A stretch of DNA of 64,000 nucleotides. Source: Deltaproteobacteria bacterium HGW-Deltaproteobacteria-18 (GTDB lineage Bacteria > Desulfobacterota > Desulfovibrionia > Desulfovibrionales > Desulfomicrobiaceae). The notes beneath the pieces were generated by a model. It was not told the DNA's origin, searched no databases, and saw only the letters and a program-made list of their open reading frames with translations. This document shows, one piece after another, positions 7,616-60,089 of this stretch; within the stretch, counting starts at the first letter, position 1, and every line of letters starts with the position of its first letter. The stretch covers positions 62,001 to 126,000 of the forward strand of contig PHBE01000012.1 of assembly GCA_002841885.1 (NCBI GenBank), given 5' to 3'. The position numbers and the translations under genes were made by a program.

Positions 7616-8179
7616 CTATATGCGAGAAGCTTTGAGCACCTGAATCCGTGCTGGAGGGATGTTGCTCCAGACATATTCATGCGCGTGTTCGTAAAAACCA
7701 TACTTGAGAAACGCATCGGCACCATTCAACGCATACGTGAACTGAACCACAATCCCTTGGGGAGCGAGGACAGAATGCCACTGCTGTGTGATTGAGAAAA
7801 TCTTCCTTTCGGAAAATGAACGGAACGGCAGACATGACACAATGATATCGACCGGAAGCGCCGGAATAAGACAGGATAATTCTGATGCGTCTCCGCAAAC
7901 GATGTTCGCTTCGGGGAATTTCCTGTTCAGATGACTGACAAAATTTGTCGAACGCTCGACAACCCATAACTGTTCCACTTTATTCATCCGTGCCCACAAA
8001 GCTTGCGTGACTACTCCGGTACCCGCACCCAATTCAACGACCAGTCCTTCCCCCTGAGGCAACCACGCTGACATCCGTCGTGCGAGTCTGTGCGCACTCG
8101 GCAAGATTGCTCCCACCGCATGCGGGTTTTTGAATAACTCCCGGAAAAACAAGAAAAACGGCTCAATTTGCTTTGACAT
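7616..8179 (-). CDS. SAM-dependent methyltransferase (phospholipid N-methyltransferase-like)
   Basis: A 187-aa class I methyltransferase. Motif I is VVELGAGTGVVTQAL (about 47-61), the acidic end of strand 2 is WVVERS, and motif IV is DIIVSCLPFRSF (about 111-122), resembling the PmtA/KsgA-like branch where aromatic residues follow the LP. The N-terminal FFLFFRELFKNPHAVGAILPS is typical of phospholipid N-methyltransferases. It would methylate phosphatidylethanolamine or a related lipid at the membrane face; another small-molecule target is possible. It is transcribed away from the QueG-like gene's strand and has no obvious operon partner. Confidence 0.75.
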   Translation of the reverse strand: MSKQIEPFFLFFRELFKNPHAVGAILPSAHRLARRMSAWLPQGEGLVVELGAGTGVVTQALWARMNKVEQLWVVERSTNFVSHLNRKFPEANIVCGDASELSCLIPALPVDIIVSCLPFRSFSERKIFSITQQWHSVLAPQGIVVQFTYALNGADAFLKYGFYEHAHEYVWSNIPPARIQVLKASRI

Positions 8180-36248: not shown

Positions 36249-36432
36249 AAGGCCACCCGTTACCGGATAGCCTTGTCGTTTGTTTTCCACCTTGAAGAGC
36301 ACGTCAAAGCACCCAACCCACAGCGGGACCAGAAAAGAAAAAAGGGATTTCAGCGTTTGAACTGAAATCCCTTGTTCTCTAATGGCGGGGCCGATGGGAC
36401 TCGAACCCACGGCCTCCGGCGTGACAGGCCGG
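36249..36432. repeat. attL: tRNA-Asp 3' end copy with its original terminator
   Basis: 36383-36432 repeats exactly the 50 bp at 59969-60018, i.e. the 3' two thirds of tRNA-Asp through the anticodon stem. To the left is the hairpin AAGGGATTTCAG...CTGAAATCCCTT (36342-36373), which on the minus strand is a terminator with a T-run, and a palindrome at 36249-36274. This is the far end of the island; it most likely carries the tRNA terminator that stood next to tRNA-Asp before integration. Confidence 0.85.
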
Positions 36433-36619
36433 ATTTAACACTCAATCAAGGCGTCTAACCATCTGCTTTTATGGAAATATCGAGTGCAATAATGTTCATA
36501 GAGTTCACATTTTTCATCCTTTGGGACACGTGGGAGACACTTCGGTCCGGGTGCGCGTGTACCGACATGACGGATGTTCAATAAATCCGAAATTATCCTG
36601 CTCCTTAATGCGTTACAAC

Positions 36620-36671
36620 CTTTTGAATGGCATTCAAGAGGTCGTCAGTTCGATCCTGATCAGCTCCACCA
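36620..36671 (+). pseudogene. 3' fragment of tRNA-Ala(GGC)
   Basis: The sequence TTTTGAATGGCATTCAAGAG then GTCGTCAGTTCGATCCTGAT and CAGCTCCACCA folds as the anticodon arm (loop with GGC), variable region, T arm and acceptor 3' strand with encoded CCA. The 5' half is absent; upstream bases do not resemble a tRNA. This is what an attachment-site remnant left by another tRNA-targeting element looks like. Confidence 0.7.
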
Positions 36672-37390
36672 CTTATAACCGCTTCAAATGATTCTTGAAT
36701 GCCGCTTGAAAGCCGTCTATTAGGGCAGTTTTTTTGTTTTCCTGAGCCAAACAAAAAAGTTGGCACCCCCTGTTGCAGCCAGCCTGCGAGCTATTCCTCC
36801 CCACCAGAAGAAGCAAAAGAAACAGATCCACTTGAGAATGATCAAGGGGTGTTTTCTGCTGCCCTACTTTCGAATTTGGTTCAGAAATTTCTGAAAACTG
36901 GACGGGGAGTAATGACAGATGTGACCCAAAGCTGCTTGTGATTTGGAGATTGATGATTCTCTGATGGCCTGGATGATTTTCGGAGCTGGTTATTCCTAAG
37001 GGACCTGAGAATTATTCAAAATTGCTGGAACGGCTATTTGGCCGTTCTCTCAATGACATCCCGATCCATTTTGACCAGTTCAAGGCAAGGGAGCTCGAAA
37101 GACGATAGGGGTGAGACGGAGATCAGCTCAGAATTTCCAGGGCTCTGTGAATTCTGAACGCTTGTCAGACATGTTCAAATAATTTTAAAGATTAAATTGT
37201 TGCGTCATACGGTTCTGAAGAGTTATTATTCCACACTCTAAATTAATAATACAACCAACACTCCAACCAGCAAGACTCAACAGGCAATCCGAGCTTACCA
37301 TTTCCTTGCTTGAGTCACATACATCTAAGTATCAGCAACTTGGCGGCGAAATCTGCAACTATTGACTACAATTCTAATCACAGGATTAAT
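36672..37390. other. Gene-poor stretch at the left edge of the island
   Basis: About 700 bases, turning AT-rich after 37150. An 80-codon frame at 36699-36941 has no ribosome site or recognisable domain, so I do not call it. The end holds the promoter region of the lipoprotein gene. Confidence 0.4.
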
Positions 37391-38110
37391 ATGATGAGAG
37401 TATTTTTAGCTATAGTGACTTGCATAATTTCATTGAGTTGCTCAAAATTACAAACTAATAATACAACAATCGACAGTGAACTAACTAAAAGGAAAGGTTC
37501 AGAAACAAATATTCATGCAAAAGTTTCAGATCCTGCCGCAATAGAAAGTGCTAATAAAATAATTAAAGAGTTCGAAGAAAAATCTTTGCGGCAATTGTAC
37601 CTAATGATGACGATAACATCAAATGAGGCATTAAAATCGAACCAGCACACGAACTTTCATGTTAGTGACAGTCTATACAAACTAATTGAGTCTCTTCAAG
37701 AATCTAAAATTTCAATAAACGACATTAGTAAATCTTCATTTTTTTTCGATGATCCTGTCGGGCAAGATTTGCCAGGGCGTGCAGGCGATAAATATTTTGA
37801 GTGTGTTGAAGTATCACCTTTATATGAAGATGAATCGCACATTAAAATTGCCGCCTACAAGGCACTTTACGTAAATCTTGATTTTAATATTCCAGTTGAA
37901 GTGACTTGGTTTGGAATTCAACCACTCATTGGTCAAAAGCTGAACTCTGATTTTCTAATTTGTACGGGTGCAAAGACTTATATGACTATTGAGAACCAAG
38001 AGCGGACAAAAATTAATTTCATTTGGCCCATATGGGCTATCAAAAATGGATATTATCCAGACGAACTTGCTCAAGAATATCGCAATCGTCTTAATAATAA
38101 ACAGGAGTAA
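37391..38110 (+). CDS. Hypothetical lipoprotein
   Basis: A 239-aa protein, strongly AT-rich. From ATG 37391 (AGGA 5 nt upstream) the N-terminus is MMRVFLAIVTCIISLSCSK, a signal peptide with lipobox SLSC. The mature part is mostly polar with a C-terminal INFIWPIWAIKNGYYPDE. I do not recognise a family. It is followed by another unknown AT-rich gene in the same direction; the pair looks recently acquired. Confidence 0.6.
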   Translation: MMRVFLAIVTCIISLSCSKLQTNNTTIDSELTKRKGSETNIHAKVSDPAAIESANKIIKEFEEKSLRQLYLMMTITSNEALKSNQHTNFHVSDSLYKLIESLQESKISINDISKSSFFFDDPVGQDLPGRAGDKYFECVEVSPLYEDESHIKIAAYKALYVNLDFNIPVEVTWFGIQPLIGQKLNSDFLICTGAKTYMTIENQERTKINFIWPIWAIKNGYYPDELAQEYRNRLNNKQE

Positions 38111-38218
38111 AAACTACTCAAGAAGTGTTTAAAATGGATTATAAATTATGATCTTTGTTAATGTTTAATTTTATATCAATATTGCAAACAGTGTTATCCG
38201 TGAATACTTGATACAAAT

Positions 38219-39109
38219 ATGATTTTTAGCGAAATAAATGCTATTGCGTCACTCATTGAAAAAGTATTTAAAATATTTAAAAAATCAAAAAATAAAAATA
38301 TTTTAAATAACGATACAATTTCGTTACGCTTTATCAATTTATTTGAATCTCATGGCATTCACAGGAACCAAATTCCTAGAGCATTTGGTCACGGTATTAC
38401 AATATCTTCTGTTCAGTCTGATAAAGATCTTTTAATTGAGCTTACTGAACAAGCTCTTGTTGATGCTTGTATTCTTTTTAATATAAACAGAGAGTGGCTT
38501 GACGGGACTGATAACCAAATTTATCCCACATATGACTTCTATAAAAATCCAAAAGAATTTCAAATATTTGTCGACACTTTACTTTCTAAATCTCAATACA
38601 AAATTGACGGCGTATTACTTGTACCGTGTGAAAAAAAATCCGGACAGGAGTCGTTGCTTCTTCTTCAAGAAATAGTTGGATATATAGAAGAAAATCCTTA
38701 CTATAGATACTATTTGATTAACAATTGGTTTTATTCTTACTGGAAATCTAGAGCGTATTTGACATCTTGCATAGCTACTTGTTGTGCAAAAAAAATTCTT
38801 GTGAAAGGATTATATTTACCTTCTTCTACTATAAAAATAATTTCTAGTGGCAATACTCTCATGCCTATGGGAAAATGTGGGATTTATCATTTTTGCGGAA
38901 AAAAATGGCATCCAGAAGACATGATATTATTACCTGATGAATTTTTAAAAGGAATTAATCCAGAAATTAACAAATTTGGATTGAAGGCTGGGTTAAAACT
39001 GTGGCTTGAGTTAGAGTCAAATGGCCATATGACATCTGGTTTAGAAGATAAAAACACAAAAATTAAATTTAAGACTAAATTAGAAAAAATGACAGGACGA
39101 GGCACTTGA
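38219..39109 (+). CDS. Hypothetical protein with possible HTH region
   Basis: A 296-aa soluble protein, about 70% AT. Residues 36-100 (SLRFINLFESHGIHRNQIPR ... FNINREWLDGTDNQIY) resemble the CI-like repressor-type pattern in which an HTH is followed by F-x-I-x-R-x-W-L-D-G; the remainder (KIDGVLLVPCEKKS, WKSRAYLTSCIATCC) matches nothing I know. It may be a regulator or a partner of the preceding lipoprotein. It is convergent with the defence module. Confidence 0.55.
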   Translation: MIFSEINAIASLIEKVFKIFKKSKNKNILNNDTISLRFINLFESHGIHRNQIPRAFGHGITISSVQSDKDLLIELTEQALVDACILFNINREWLDGTDNQIYPTYDFYKNPKEFQIFVDTLLSKSQYKIDGVLLVPCEKKSGQESLLLLQEIVGYIEENPYYRYYLINNWFYSYWKSRAYLTSCIATCCAKKILVKGLYLPSSTIKIISSGNTLMPMGKCGIYHFCGKKWHPEDMILLPDEFLKGINPEINKFGLKAGLKLWLELESNGHMTSGLEDKNTKIKFKTKLEKMTGRGT

Positions 39110-39196
39110 TTTTGGTGCCCGATTGTTGGTGTCTAGCGATACCTTCCGCTATATCATTCAAACTTCCGGCCATGATCTCTCCCGCCTTAAGCTATG

Positions 39197-40165
39197 CTAG
39201 ACAGAACCAACTACCGTGAATTCTGTCTCGATATGATATGAAGCTGATGCTCCGGACATATGCGGCTGGAAGTCTTCTTCCAGCCTACAGCATTCCTCAT
39301 AATCAAGCATGTTGATCCGAACATGATTGCCATCATTCCTGTCTCGTCTTTGATCCAACCCCTGACCGCAATCGACACCAGCGATGTCCGTTAGAATGTG
39401 TCTATCATGGGCGTCCACTCCATGCTGTTTTTCAAAATAAACCGTGAAATTAACTTTAAAATTTAAAGGAACAAGTCTTGGAATCTGCTCCTCACACAAT
39501 CCCCTAAATTCTCTGCAAAGCTCAAGTCTTATCTCAGATCCAGGAGCTTTACCCCTGCGTTTGTCTCCCTTCAAAGCTGTGCAGACCTGAATTTCCATAA
39601 TTGGATGTACGCAATCTGGTGAAGTCAACACAGAGATTATCTCAGTAAGCACATTGCAGAATCGGTCTTCCATGAAAAAATAAGGCTCAATAAGGACGAC
39701 TCTTTTCGACCTCTTCAGCATGGGAGCCACAGCGGCTACAATATCCTTTGCGTTTCTGGTTGCCCTGCAACTCCGTGTACAATTCCATAGGTGATGGTCG
39801 CCGGTAACGATGTCGTCGAAAGGTATGACCCTTCCATGTTTTCGAGGATTGGCGTCTGCCAGAATACCATGAAATGGAAGCCGCGCATCCTCAACCTCTG
39901 CCTCGATCAGCCAATCGCCACCATTGAAGACCGAATGCTCTCGTATGACCGAATGAGGTAGCAGCCATTTATCTAAGAGGACTTCAAGTCGCATTCGGTC
40001 CATCTCAGACGCGCCTCCGAGCATCCGCATAACCTTCTGACGCCATTTACGCGGATATTGGGAAAGAACCCGACCCGTGTCGTTAAACGCATCTCTCAGA
40101 AAACCGTACTGTCGGGAGTACTCCGCGACAAGGACGCTTGGATCAAGAGCGTACTCTTGGATCAT
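39197..40165 (-). CDS. Putative PLD-like (HDR motif) effector, partner of the DUF3696 ATPase
   Basis: A 322-aa protein with no close family I can name. The region VVLIEPYFFMEDRFCNVL (about 157-173) and AHDRHILTDIAGVDCGQGLD (252-271) follow the H-D-R...G-x-G-L-D layout of phospholipase-D-like domains such as MIT-C-type domains; this is inference. The start overlaps the ATPase stop by 4 bp (ATGA), showing they are made together. As the last gene of the three-gene module it is the likely effector, cutting nucleic acid or lipid under ATPase control. Confidence 0.6.
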   Translation of the reverse strand: MIQEYALDPSVLVAEYSRQYGFLRDAFNDTGRVLSQYPRKWRQKVMRMLGGASEMDRMRLEVLLDKWLLPHSVIREHSVFNGGDWLIEAEVEDARLPFHGILADANPRKHGRVIPFDDIVTGDHHLWNCTRSCRATRNAKDIVAAVAPMLKRSKRVVLIEPYFFMEDRFCNVLTEIISVLTSPDCVHPIMEIQVCTALKGDKRRGKAPGSEIRLELCREFRGLCEEQIPRLVPLNFKVNFTVYFEKQHGVDAHDRHILTDIAGVDCGQGLDQRRDRNDGNHVRINMLDYEECCRLEEDFQPHMSGASASYHIETEFTVVGSV

Positions 40166-41841
40166 GAGAACAGCTCCTCTGATCTTTCAGCGAAGAAACC
40201 TCCTGGCCAGCGGGTCAAAAAGTCTCCGTCCTTATCAATGAGAATTTCCTTGAAAATTGTGCCATCCTCAGTTGCGCGGATGTGATAAATCGCCACCTGT
40301 TCCGGGTCTAATTTTGGGGCGTGTGGGGGTAGTTCATTACTAGACGTCTGACGAATTCGCCGCATGATCCTGAGCATTAGATGCTCACTATGAGTCTCAA
40401 TGATGAAGCAGTTCCCCTTGGTCGTGCTTTCATGGATGAACAGATCCCCAAGTCCGACCTGAAGCTTTGGATGAATATGCAGTTCGGGCTGCTCGATAGA
40501 CAATATGGAATTACGCGTTACCAGCGAAGCAACGACCACTGGCAGCACTTGGGAAATGCCGACACCTATGTCCTGAGGCATAACTTTTATGTTCTTTGCC
40601 TCTTCGACCAAATACAAACGTTTTTCTGGCCTTTGGGCCAAAATGTCATTCAGTTCTTGTTGATAATCATCAAGGCTTCTCCCAGAACGAAGGGCTGCCA
40701 TGAGACGCCCGTTTTCATTAATCCGACGGAAGATTTCCATCTCAAGACGGTAGCCGCTATCAAGCCTTTCATCACTTGCCAGCCATTTATTCGCATCTTT
40801 AATCAATGCCTCGCCTTGGTTGCAAAGAGCATCCCAGGCTGCGAGACCATTTGACCAGCGGGACGGGTCAGGAGATTTTACCTCGACGTAGTTCCGTTCT
40901 GGCACTTCCCTGATCGGCCCAAGATAGCACATTTTTTCGAGATCATTGCGCACCATTTCACCGGGGCCGGTAATAAGCGACGTCAGGCAACTGGAAATGA
41001 TGTGGGTGGCCTCTATGACGGCAGAGTAGTCCTCTAGCGGGATGTCGGATTCGAAAGATTTTGAAACAGGAAGGATACGTTCCCACTGTGGAAGAGGTGA
41101 CGTCATGCCACGCAAAATTTTTCTATGTGAAAAATAATCTACAATTTCATTGTCGAGATCATCGGGTGTTCCTGCCCACCAGTTAATTAATTTATTGAGG
41201 GCTCCTGCATCGACGCCATCATAGTCTCCACCGTCCAAGGCAGCTTCAATCTCCCGCTTAAAAGCTGCGCTACCATCATTATTATCCCAGTAGACCGAAT
41301 TGAATGGATTGAGGGAAAGGTAAACCAGTTCTTTTCCAGGAAGGAAATTCAGGGTCGCCAGAGACTCCTCGTTCACCATAACACTATATTCCGTAACAGC
41401 CGGTTTCCCCGCCATGGGGTTAAGGCTGTCGTCTTCGATAACTTGAACTGCGATGCCAACAGAGGCCGAGTTAACTCGACCGACAGCTTCTTTCAGTTCA
41501 ATTTGCTCTTGATCCCAGAGCTTGGAATCATCTGTATCGTAATAATCCGGGAGAGGGTCAGCAGAAAGATCGAGATCAAAAGTGATCTTAATTGGGAGGC
41601 TTTGATCATGTTTGTAGACAAGATTACTGAACCCGCCCAGATCCATGCTACCACCGAGCAGGGTTTTGTCAGGATCTGTATTCTGCCGTAAAAAAATTTC
41701 ACGGGCATAGTGCAGCGCTTGGACAACTGTACTTTTGCCAGCACTGTTCGCGCCGAAGAGCATGGTCAGGGGCTTCAGCTTGATGCGGCACGGCCCCTTG
41801 ATGCCTTTGAAATTTTCCAGCGTGATGGCGGTAATAACCAT
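40162..41841 (-). CDS. DUF3696 AAA/ABC-type ATPase (OLD/RecF-like), defence-associated
   Basis: A 559-aa SMC/RecF-like ATPase. Walker A is GANSAGKST (residues 30-38) after LENFKGIKGPCRIKLKPLTM; Walker B is LSIEQPELHIHPKLQ, followed by FIIETHSEHLMLRIMRRIRQ. The C-terminus DKDGDFLTRWPGGFFAERSE is the DUF3696 signature. ATG 41841 has AGGAGAG 5-6 nt upstream; a longer frame has no ribosome site. It is 16 bp after the 229-aa gene and overlaps the next gene by 4 bp. ATPases of this type power several antiphage systems (Septu-like, OLD-like); the present combination is not one I recognise. Confidence 0.85.
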   Translation of the reverse strand: MVITAITLENFKGIKGPCRIKLKPLTMLFGANSAGKSTVVQALHYAREIFLRQNTDPDKTLLGGSMDLGGFSNLVYKHDQSLPIKITFDLDLSADPLPDYYDTDDSKLWDQEQIELKEAVGRVNSASVGIAVQVIEDDSLNPMAGKPAVTEYSVMVNEESLATLNFLPGKELVYLSLNPFNSVYWDNNDGSAAFKREIEAALDGGDYDGVDAGALNKLINWWAGTPDDLDNEIVDYFSHRKILRGMTSPLPQWERILPVSKSFESDIPLEDYSAVIEATHIISSCLTSLITGPGEMVRNDLEKMCYLGPIREVPERNYVEVKSPDPSRWSNGLAAWDALCNQGEALIKDANKWLASDERLDSGYRLEMEIFRRINENGRLMAALRSGRSLDDYQQELNDILAQRPEKRLYLVEEAKNIKVMPQDIGVGISQVLPVVVASLVTRNSILSIEQPELHIHPKLQVGLGDLFIHESTTKGNCFIIETHSEHLMLRIMRRIRQTSSNELPPHAPKLDPEQVAIYHIRATEDGTIFKEILIDKDGDFLTRWPGGFFAERSEELFS

Positions 41842-41857
41842 GAGTCTCTCCTGAATA

Positions 41858-42547
41858 CTAAGCAGCAAGCCACAATGTGGCGATCTCTGTACATGCAGCC
41901 TGTACGTGCTGCATGTTGCGTTTATAGGCTTTGGGAGCATGTACGACCTTTCCCGCGAACACATCCACAACAAAGCAGTTGTGCGGCTTCACGGAGGCCT
42001 CTGACGACAATATTTCGGCCAGGTATCGATAGAGCACTGTGCCAACAATGGGCATGGCTTCATCGGAAAGCGGGTGCGTTTTACCGAGGTAGAGTTTGAT
42101 GCCGCCCACGATAGCCCCAGATTCGGAATCGGTGAGCAACACTTCTGGCCGGACACTTACATCCATACCCGCCAAGCTCATCTTGGGAACCGAATTCTCA
42201 CCTTCAACCGGAGTATAGCCGTTGGTAGGAACCTGTTCCGCGATATTGAGAAAAGAAATGAGCGCTTGAGTACAGAGGTCTGCGGTTTGTCCTTCCCAAC
42301 TTTCCTGATTCGCCATGGCGGAAAGAGATGCTATTGCTCGTTGTAACTGGTCCGTGTTGGGTCTGTGTATGGTGAAATATGCCTTGATGGCCTGTTCGGC
42401 CTTGGCATATCGCGCCACAATGAAATCCTTGGGTTCACGTTGTTCCTTAATGATGGTACTCCGACGCCCCGGCAAGGGGGCGGAAAGATACTCCCCGAGT
42501 TTGTTCAAAGACATGCGAGGATTCGTACGTTCACGCTGCGTATACAT
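41858..42547 (-). CDS. Unknown 229-aa protein, first gene of the ATPase module
   Basis: The start MYTQRERTNPRMSL at 42547 has AGGGAG 8 nt upstream. The C-terminal half contains MDVSVRPEVLLTD...VGGIKLYLGK, which looks like the core of a PD-(D/E)xK nuclease (acidic residue, then x-K), but this is weak inference. A perfect hairpin CTGGCGAC-CGGA-GTCGCCAG (42564-42583) lies just before the ribosome site and might modulate translation. Gene spacing to the ATPase is 16 bp. It could be a sensor, nuclease or adaptor for the ATPase. Confidence 0.55.
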   Translation of the reverse strand: MYTQRERTNPRMSLNKLGEYLSAPLPGRRSTIIKEQREPKDFIVARYAKAEQAIKAYFTIHRPNTDQLQRAIASLSAMANQESWEGQTADLCTQALISFLNIAEQVPTNGYTPVEGENSVPKMSLAGMDVSVRPEVLLTDSESGAIVGGIKLYLGKTHPLSDEAMPIVGTVLYRYLAEILSSEASVKPHNCFVVDVFAGKVVHAPKAYKRNMQHVQAACTEIATLWLAA

Positions 42548-57672: not shown

Positions 57673-58728
57673 ATGGCTTATTATGAAGAAGAAACTGGCA
57701 AATGGCGTGGTGTCATCAAATATAGCGAAACGAAACGAAGAACAAAACTCGTAGCAACAGAGCGTGAAGCGGTGGAGTGGGAAACCCTAGGACGCGCCGA
57801 ACGGGATCGAAATCGACAACAATCAAAAAATCGCAAAGGGATATTGTCCATATCGAACTATTGTATCGGCCCTCTCGTAGAGGGATATCTGATTCATCTT
57901 CAAGGCAGGAACAAGCCTCGGGAATGGAGCGAAAAATTGAATTTTTTCAGAAGGTTTCTGTCGATTGTCCCGTCGAAAACACATGTTTCAAACATTACAC
58001 CAGACATGGTGATGGCATTCATTGACCGTGACCAGGCACGTTCGGGGAATGCTCGTAACAAAGACCTTAAGCGGCTTGATGCGGCTTGGGCATGGGGCGT
58101 AAAGCGACTTAAACTGCCATATGCAAACCCATTTGTTTTCTGCGACAGGTTTCCGGAATTAAGAAAAGCAAAGTATATACCGCCTTTTCAAGACGTTCTG
58201 AAGGTTACATTATCCGCGACAGGCGAGGAGCGTTTAATTTTGATGCTCTGTCTCGTGACAGCGGCTCGACGTGTCGAAATGTTTAGAATCAAAGTAGAAA
58301 CTGATTTTATTCCAGATGACTGCATTATTGTTCTAACAACAGAAAAGACAAATGGAAATGGCGAGAGAAGAGATAAAATAAAAATACCGGACGAGTTGAG
58401 TCAACAAATACAGAGACACATCGAAAATAATAGCATTACAGAGATGCTGTTTAATTATGTCAGTCCAGATCGTGGAAACTGGGACAAGTGGCTCAAAGAT
58501 TTTTGTATACAGAATGAAGTAAAACCATTCACGATCCATGGAATAAGGCATCGTGTGGCAACAGAGTTGATCAAGAAGAAAATTGAACTTACGGATATCC
58601 AGGCCCTTCTGAGACACACTCGGGCATCGACCACAGATAATTATATTCATAATATCGGCGAATCTCTAGATATAACTATATATACAAAATCAGTTCTAGA
58701 TTTACTGAAAATTAATAATGCAGCGTAA
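57673..58728 (+). CDS. int: Tyrosine recombinase 1 (phage-type integrase)
   Basis: A 351-aa integrase with an N-terminal AP2-like arm-binding part (YYEEETGKWRGVIKYSETKR), a core-binding domain and a catalytic domain. Visible catalytic residues: Arg in VTAARRVEMFR, H-x-x-R in IHGIRHRVAT, His in LLRHTRAST and Tyr in DNYIHNI. It is AT-richer than integrase 2 and 33-40% similar in pattern to it (MAY...KW/RWR start). A terminator follows its stop. Confidence 0.9.
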   Translation: MAYYEEETGKWRGVIKYSETKRRTKLVATEREAVEWETLGRAERDRNRQQSKNRKGILSISNYCIGPLVEGYLIHLQGRNKPREWSEKLNFFRRFLSIVPSKTHVSNITPDMVMAFIDRDQARSGNARNKDLKRLDAAWAWGVKRLKLPYANPFVFCDRFPELRKAKYIPPFQDVLKVTLSATGEERLILMLCLVTAARRVEMFRIKVETDFIPDDCIIVLTTEKTNGNGERRDKIKIPDELSQQIQRHIENNSITEMLFNYVSPDRGNWDKWLKDFCIQNEVKPFTIHGIRHRVATELIKKKIELTDIQALLRHTRASTTDNYIHNIGESLDITIYTKSVLDLLKINNAA

Positions 58729-58762: not shown

Positions 58763-58832
58763 TTGAAATAAAAAGCACTATAAAGTATACTTATTAAAGA
58801 TGGTTAGGCGTCTATGCTTATTTGGAGGCTAT

Positions 58833-59924
58833 ATGGCTTACAAAGAGAATGGACGCTGGCGGGCTGCTGTCAAATTTGACGGCACTCGCAAGACAAAGTT
58901 CTTTGACAGAAAAAAAGATGCTGAAGTGTGGGAGAAAGAGATGCTGGCATCACTCAAACAGTCAGCGACCCTTGATAATGAAACAAGTGCTCCAACGCCT
59001 CTTATCGGTCTGACTCTCAAAGAGTGGCTTGATTCATATGTGGAATCGCAAAATGGCTGCGTGAGCACGAAGACGTACAAGGAAAAGGCTCTTTGTCGCG
59101 ACATGTTCTTGGAGCAGTACCATGGCGAGGGCAGGACTGTGAAAAAAGGCGGCGGAAGAGGGAGTCTGACAGTGGTGCAAATAACGCCACTTGTCGCACA
59201 GCAATACTTCAAATCTGAGCGCAAGTTTGGACGAAGCGGTAACGCTGTGAACAAGGACCGCAAAAACTTGATAGCTGCCTGGAACTGGGGAGTTCAGTAC
59301 TACGGTTTTCCAACCGAAAATCCTTTCAAGCGAGTCAAGCGTCAGCCGGAATCCAGATCGCCACGATACATCCCATCGTTAGAGGACTTCCTGGCCGTAA
59401 TCAATATCGCCGATGGCCAGGACAAGACCCTGCTGCTGACCCTGTTTTACTCGGCGGGCCGGAAGAGTGAAGTCTTCAAGTTGATGACCGACGATGTAGA
59501 TTTGCGGGAGAATAGGCTTCGCTTATGGACCCGTAAACGGAAGAACTCAGACGTAGAGGCAGATTATGTGCCGATCCCTCCTGAATTCAAACCGGCCTTG
59601 TGCGAGCAAATGAACCGGCACCCGGACGTGGCTCATGTGTTCGTGAGTAGGCGAGGCCAAAAGCCTTTGGTCGATCACCGACGTTGGCTTTATCGTTTAT
59701 GTGAACGGGCCGGAGTCAGGGCCTTTGGGTTTCACGGTATTCGCCACCTTGCGGCGAGTGTGGCAATCGCTGACGGTTCGGTAGGTCTTCTTGATGTCCA
59801 GCAACTCCTTAGACACAAATCAGCAACTACGACGCAACGCTACATTCATCGTGTCACAACGTCTAATCGGGCCACGTCAGTTTTGGCATCGAAAATTCTT
59901 GGGACACGCAGGCGGGACACGTGA
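58833..59924 (+). CDS. int: Tyrosine recombinase 2, tRNA-Asp-proximal integrase
   Basis: A 363-aa integrase starting MAYKENGRWRAAVKFDGTRK, with GGAGG 7 nt upstream of ATG 58833. Catalytic residues: Arg in YSAGRKSEVFKLM, H-x-x-R in FHGIRHLAAS, His in LLRHKSAT and Tyr in TQRYIHRV. It ends 44 bp from the CCA of tRNA-Asp, the usual position of the integrase that uses the tRNA as attachment site, and is the best candidate for inserting the island. Confidence 0.92.
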   Translation: MAYKENGRWRAAVKFDGTRKTKFFDRKKDAEVWEKEMLASLKQSATLDNETSAPTPLIGLTLKEWLDSYVESQNGCVSTKTYKEKALCRDMFLEQYHGEGRTVKKGGGRGSLTVVQITPLVAQQYFKSERKFGRSGNAVNKDRKNLIAAWNWGVQYYGFPTENPFKRVKRQPESRSPRYIPSLEDFLAVINIADGQDKTLLLTLFYSAGRKSEVFKLMTDDVDLRENRLRLWTRKRKNSDVEADYVPIPPEFKPALCEQMNRHPDVAHVFVSRRGQKPLVDHRRWLYRLCERAGVRAFGFHGIRHLAASVAIADGSVGLLDVQQLLRHKSATTTQRYIHRVTTSNRATSVLASKILGTRRRDT

Positions 59925-59968: not shown

Positions 59969-60045
<77 letters not shown>

Positions 60046-60050
60046 GCATT

Positions 60051-60089
60051 TTGTAAGGCCGACGCTCTCCCAGCTGAGCTAACCGCCCC
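60051..60089 (-). pseudogene. 5' half of tRNA-Val (UAC)
   Basis: GGGGCGGTTAGCTCAGCTGG then GAGAGCGTCGGCCTTACAA matches the acceptor 5' strand, D arm, and anticodon arm through the loop (TAC). It breaks off after the anticodon loop, 5 nt before tRNA-Asp, so the T arm and 3' end are missing. It is not functional. Confidence 0.8.

Follow-up and report, generated by a model that had tools for sequence, protein, structure and literature searches.

The tRNA-Ala(GGC) 3' half that lies close to the left edge of a genomic island in the analyzed DNA is probably the orphan left end of a tRNA-Ala(GGC)-specific element that came from another species of the same genus and became attached to the outer left end of an island in a tRNA-Asp gene. 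The DNA under study (64 kb, hereafter the window) is part of contig C12 of a 3.99-Mb draft genome (G000, hereafter the host), and the island extends from position 36383 to 60045, with a tRNA-Asp 3' fragment at one end and a whole tRNA-Asp at the other.

The attachment repeat proposed in the initial annotation was recovered as a direct repeat of 55 nt with 96% identity (36383-36437 / 59969-60023). Its left copy is the displaced 3' part of tRNA-Asp(GTC) on the attL side (36383..36437, minus strand), which is overlapped by an Rfam tRNA match at 36386-36455 and has on its outside a terminator stem (36342-36373) like that found after tRNA-Asp in the congener G039. The right copy belongs to the whole tRNA-Asp(GTC), the restored target gene (59969..60045, minus strand), with the displaced fragment in direct orientation to it. 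Tyrosine integrase genes adjoin this tRNA-Asp: integrase 1 (57673..58728, plus strand, 351 aa; PF00589, E 7.1e-15) is followed by integrase 2 (58800..59924, plus strand, 374 aa; PF00589, E 1.1e-15), the latter being the one next to the tRNA gene. Besides this tandem integrase pair, island genes encode a HipA-type protein with a CI-like repressor and a KfrA-like protein, and the segment 39197-50390 comprises a type I restriction-modification system, an AAA-type ATPase (40162-41973) with unmatched neighbors and an RtcR-like regulator, a sigma-54 activator. No promoter-like sites were found in 36300-37320.

Both a 473-nt piece of the island (37660-38132, 97.5% identity) and a relative of integrase 2 (81%) occur in the congener G039. 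The left side there is rearranged: a transposase-like gene (identified by eye) stands between the tRNA operon and the common piece, and G039 therefore did not provide an empty site. At this locus (L111:8010-14355), the relative of integrase 2 is flanked by two tRNA-Val/tRNA-Asp operons, which are in facing orientation at a distance of about 6 kb. In the window, the sequence upstream of tRNA-Asp (60051-60088) corresponds to tRNA-Val(TAC), which precedes tRNA-Asp in G039, minus 47 nt that include its 3' half; the break has a 4-nt overlap, and another copy of tRNA-Val(TAC) at G000:C21:104216-104283 matches over 68 nt.

BLAST and ARAGORN identified the fragment under study as the 3' half of tRNA-Ala(GGC), from the anticodon stem to the CCA (36623..36671, plus strand), with a likely crossover at the anticodon loop (ATGGCAT from 36627). 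The half begins at the anticodon loop, as is characteristic of tRNA-Ala elements, and its orientation is opposite to that of the tRNA-Asp pieces. It had been described beforehand as a 52-nt tRNA-Ala 3' end with CCA at 36620-36671, located 190 bp inside attL. The identity, the CCA and the position within the island left end (185 bp inward) held, and the extent had to be trimmed to 36623-36671, with positions 36620-36622 falling outside the match.

The comparison with the genomic tRNA-Ala(GGC) 3' end, which the initial annotation had put forward as the way to check the fragment, gave a divided result. The host has two tRNA-Ala(GGC) genes (G000:C7:292942 and G000:C3:145862), and BLAST against the own genome matched the fragment to both (E 5e-13 and 6e-12, 87% over 53-55 nt); each of them differs from it at 7 of the 49 positions. 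The same 49 nt are identical to the tRNA-Ala of G014, G052 and G079, of the same genus, and of G067 and G009, of another genus in the same family. Inspection by eye located the changes relative to the host genes in three T-stem pairs, altered on both sides with pairing kept (one as G-U), and at position 66. Such paired changes indicate that the fragment descends from a different functional gene and, since the host genes differ while relatives match exactly, the fragment was imported rather than misidentified. The existence of two tRNA-Ala(GGC) genes in the host would provide a source for a pseudo-tRNA of local origin. Given the differences to both of them, the exact matches in relatives and a homology that runs on through the trailer and the following block, this origin was rejected, and a pseudo-tRNA derived from the host's own genes or a chance match, the latter excluded by the E value of 5e-13, is extremely improbable.

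Since congeners and another genus have the same 49 nt, these cannot by themselves identify the donor, which is indicated instead by the trailer and the block. The fragment and its trailer are 98-99% identical over 91-95 nt to G079, G014, G052 and G073, all of the same genus; in the order-wide search, carried out with a 98-nt query that included the trailer, 66 of 199 genomes gave a match at E <= 1e-10. This supported that part of the island left end comes from the tRNA-Ala locus of a relative, and agreed with the earlier proposal that the island is a mosaic.

For 190 to 280 bp, the homology to congeners continues through the trailer, a terminator that has decayed and a block containing inverted repeats. 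The tRNA-Ala trailer (36672..36711, plus strand) is part of a segment (36672-36717) in which 44-45 of 46 positions agree with G014, G052 and G079, and contains the anticodon-arm antisense TCTTGAATGCC (36693-36703, plus strand), which forms an inverted repeat. It is followed by what remains of the intrinsic terminator of tRNA-Ala (36712..36735, plus strand), missed by the terminator scan: the predicted folding energy of trailer plus terminator was -11.7 kcal/mol (z -0.08) versus -26.0 kcal/mol (z -4.49) for the same stretch in the congener G014. Beyond 36717, the identity to DNA after tRNA-Ala is 77-81%, reaching to ~36950 in G073 and over shorter lengths in G052 and G014. Based on its dyads and congener identity, the block (36736..36950, plus strand) is probably the left end of a tRNA-Ala-type element; the dyads are GCCAA...TTGGC at 36746-36764 and CTTGAGAATGATCAAG, of the CTTGA..TCAAG type, at 36831-36846. 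At E <= 0.001, the block is present in 4 of the 16 genomes of the genus, the own one included, and was not found in the remaining 12.

Complete islands at tRNA-Ala occur in relatives. The whole tRNA-Ala of G014, at C38:19792, has the block behind it and then a GmrSD-type gene; two PF00589 recombinases of 210 and 296 aa, the larger one having an AP2 match below the Pfam cut-off, are encoded at 38107-39681, and a displaced tRNA-Ala 3' half at 41085 closes a 21-kb tRNA-Ala island. Beyond the displaced half, homology to the corresponding G079 locus resumes. G134 and G137 have the same bracket of tRNA-Ala, recombinase pair and displaced half, and so does G135, where the AP2-type integrase is more distant (38%). 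Composite arrangements were found as well: two consecutive recombinase pairs, separated by a displaced half, behind tRNA-Ala in G068, a 36% integrase followed by a displaced half and then by the recombinase pair in G150, and tRNA-Ala with two divergent integrases (32-36%) and two displaced halves in G142. In G068 and G150, the DNA after the second element yielded no terminal half. One AP2 integrase of G172 is followed at 0.55 kb by a displaced half. As judged by eye, left ends after tRNA-Ala carry GCCAA...TTGGC and CTTGAA...TTCAAG repeats in G014, G068, G137, G183 and the window, and less clearly in G134; such inverted repeats were not evident after tRNA-Ala in G142, G135 and G076 or after the whole tRNA of G150.

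The distribution of the block also bears on an explanation that does not involve a tRNA-Ala integrase, in which the island acquired donor chromosomal DNA (the tRNA-Ala 3' half and its downstream sequence) through illegitimate or homologous recombination. The first ~75 nt of the block are found after the displaced half of G014 too, that is, on the chromosomal side, and in G052 the block follows an intact tRNA-Ala, with neither a displaced half nor a recombinase found in the contig of 18.7 kb; both results favor this explanation and argue against an element end. Such a capture would equally be compatible with an island in which no tRNA-Ala element genes were found. Against it, the breakpoint is within ~4 nt of the anticodon-loop crossover of tRNA-Ala elements, a place where a random break would rarely fall, and block-like dyads follow tRNA-Ala at island-bearing loci of other genera. 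We infer that the block represents the end of an element and not chromosome of the donor, and consider the capture of chromosomal DNA unlikely.

The initial annotation had regarded the two integrases of the island as fitting a tRNA-Ala fragment, an idea that the loci of their relatives did not support. For each integrase query, the 30 best-ranked loci were recounted with ARAGORN in linear mode, which gave 60 loci that include the own ones and are partly the same places. For integrase 2, a tRNA lies within 1.5 kb in 28 of 30 loci, the nearest being Asp in 6 and Glu in 22; for integrase 1, this is the case in 26 of 30, with Asp (6), Glu (16), Arg (2), Leu (1) and Lys (1) as the nearest. No tRNA was found within 1.5 kb in 6 of the 60 loci, and tRNA-Ala was within that distance in none of them, so that both enzymes were rejected as the tRNA-Ala integrase. 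Six relatives of integrase 2 are located in viral contigs.

The integrase type that resides in tRNA-Ala islands has a weak AP2 N-domain and PF00589, and is encoded next to a small partner recombinase. When the AP2 integrase of G014 was searched against the own genome, the best match (E 5.9e-6, 28%) was an integrase near tRNA-Arg at C7:235798, outside the island, and the partner recombinase gave no match at E <= 0.001 in a search run without a positive control; the own genome has no close relative of this AP2-type integrase. Together with the 60 loci devoid of tRNA-Ala, this indicates that the integrases present do not explain the fragment. Neither a tRNA-Ala-element right end nor an integrase or common cargo of such elements was found in the island. 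Comparison of 15 island proteins with 19 stretches (tRNA-Ala or AP2-integrase loci of relatives, plus L111 of G039) gave matches of 29-42% for the sigma-54 regulator, which has a common domain, whereas 37310-38110 and both integrases matched in G039 alone.

The AP2 integrase is itself not always linked to tRNA-Ala. Within 1.5-kb flanks, a tRNA-Ala half was present at 2 of 25 AP2 integrase loci and another tRNA (Thr, Pro, Pro) at 3 of 25. A search of genome contigs with the AP2 integrases returned nine loci, with a tRNA-Ala half in two of the nine stretches, one of them on the contig already described for G134. Downstream of the AP2 relatives in G115, G124 (C7, C13), G088, G078, G182 (C62, C44), G172 (C2:3613485) and G059, stretches of 2 to 40 kb gave no tRNA-Ala.

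The 185 nt that separate the displaced tRNA-Asp part from the fragment (36438..36622, strand not assigned) probably represent the outer left end of the tRNA-Asp element. They contain a putative arm-type site, TTGGGACACGTG, at 36521-36532. The motif GGGACACG occurs three times in the 64-kb window, at 36523, 59901 and 59914, on the same strand and near both island ends, the latter two being putative arm-type sites of the right end (59899..59923, plus strand); it was also found by the relative of integrase 2 in the congener G039. The restriction of GGGACACG to position 36523 and the right end is the reason for assigning the outer DNA to the tRNA-Asp element. None of the 15 other genomes of the genus matched 36438-36622 at E <= 0.01.

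The right ends of tRNA-Ala elements have a different appearance. TTGGC/GCCAA is absent from the 250 nt before 36627, versus 5, 6 and 8 copies that the right ends of G014, G068 and G134 contain over the same length; the maximum anywhere in the island is 4 per 250 nt, and no GCCAA/TTGGC-rich right end of a tRNA-Ala element was found in it. The displaced halves of related islands start at ATGGCATTCAAG in 9 of the 11 cases read, and the three bases that precede ATGGCAT (ATGGTAT in G135) in the 11 right ends read are GGC in seven, and TGC, TGT, GGA and TTC once each. The left arm in the window is TTTTGA, near the tRNA's own arm CTTGA, and none of the 11 related right ends has TTGA before the core. 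The junction resembles DNA of a tRNA-Asp element that was fused, at the crossover point, to a tRNA-Ala element's left end, which fits an insertion at a secondary site.

The left arm was also considered in the light of viral sequences. A 47-kb IMG/VR contig (L205) has at 7638-7691 a 54-nt tRNA-Ala(GGC) core identical to that of the congeners, provided with a tRNA-like left arm and located outside any whole tRNA; it was the only exact match to the tRNA-Ala core found in viral contigs, and is perhaps the attP of a temperate phage. For this reason, the left arm in the window does not single out a secondary attB, and a phage-type attP is compatible with it. The fragment could then be a second attP of an island which, itself or through an ancestor, used tRNA-Asp or tRNA-Ala and switched target. 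The viral core, with its similar arm before the half, and the two integrases of the island would agree with this, but neither integrase has a relative beside tRNA-Ala among the 60 loci, no close AP2 integrase is present, the outer side is devoid of the GCCAA/TTGGC repeats of tRNA-Ala right ends, and the terminator that an integrating copy would supply has decayed. A target switch of this kind therefore seems quite improbable.

We favor, for these reasons, a left end brought in by a tRNA-Ala element. Such an element end would consist of the tRNA-Ala 3' half from the anticodon loop, a host-like trailer, the terminator and an end block with inverted repeats, and in the donor, where the element inserts at the anticodon loop, it would make the tRNA-Ala gene whole again. 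The joining to the tRNA-Asp element was most likely carried out by a tRNA-Ala integrase at a non-tRNA secondary site, and most of the incoming element would have been lost later. The right end of a tRNA-Ala element in G068 (C1:2231906-2231919), which is followed by only 14 nt of the tRNA-Ala core and then by unrelated non-tRNA DNA, hints that these elements can occupy sites other than tRNA genes or undergo deletions at them. A tRNA-Ala 5' half is absent before the window fragment and, with the matching integrase missing as well, the fragment probably does nothing now.

The trailer has a feature of its own. In the bacterial family, tRNA-Ala(GGC) trailers contain CTTGAATGCC, an antisense of 10-11 nt to the anticodon arm of the same tRNA, just before the terminator; it is present too in the trailers of the host genes at G000:C7:292942 and C3:145862. 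Among 144 distinct tRNA/trailer pairs, the longest antisense match to the anticodon arm within 80 nt downstream was 4-6 nt in 121, and 9-11 nt, located 21-29 nt after the CCA, in sixteen tRNA-Ala(GGC) genes of the family; the sole other 9-nt case was a tRNA-Ala(CGC), at 69 nt. These loci were retrieved with a query that included the trailer and hence lean towards the motif, the wider count being a pattern search over the order: GCTCCACCA-N12-40-CTTGAATGCC was found in 17 of 22 family genomes and in none of the 177 other genomes of the order, with one match in the backward control. The island-borne trailer copies (window and G014 left end) retain the antisense. In the predicted fold of the whole host pre-tRNA, the trailer forms its own hairpin, with no pairing with the anticodon arm, and when the tRNA half was folded without the 5' part, the half paired with the trailer. 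It is conceivable, if doubtful, that the conserved antisense of the family has a function at the RNA level and that elements inserting into the gene carry it along with the tRNA 3' end, the window fragment being one such copy. The antisense trailer is in any case a separate, testable RNA feature.

These results illustrate that the trace of an earlier partner can persist in an island as a tRNA scar, with a 49-nt fragment and its flanks pointing to a second element type, a source genus and the loss of an integrase, and that the integrases present are not necessarily those to which an internal tRNA fragment belongs. Among the closest counterparts are the tRNA-Ala(GGC) islands with AP2 integrases of the same order (G014, G134, G137, G135, G068 and G150), which have in common with the window the 3' half from the anticodon loop, the terminator and, in several cases, a dyad-bearing left end; the window copy differs in being without the tRNA 5' half, the recombinases and the right end. 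In the titles and abstract beginnings of the literature on islands, tRNA-Ala in Desulfovibrio, AP2 recombinases and tRNA trailers, neither this element type nor such trailers were found, which is no proof of their absence.

Islander, according to the portion of its description considered here (PMC4383910), covers tRNA-gene islands with displaced tDNA fragments and names the anticodon loop among the crossover subsites. As in these islands, the island in the window has a whole tRNA gene at one end, a 3' fragment at the other and a tyrosine integrase; unlike in them, as far as that portion goes, the tRNA-Ala fragment is internal to the island of another tRNA, in opposite orientation and without its cognate integrase. 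A scan that pairs fragments with their own tRNA gene and integrase would probably drop it. For the joining of a second element, the excerpted account of SGI1 in Salmonella (PMC2297512), with secondary attB use and tandem arrays, offers a precedent; the target of SGI1 is there the thdF 3' end, not a tRNA gene, and in the window only one end of the second element remains. Since tRNA islands, tandem arrays and secondary sites are, from these parts of the two sources (PMC4383910, PMC2297512), already known, the tRNA-Ala fragment is a new instance of them, and a real but fairly ordinary sign of a patched-together island.
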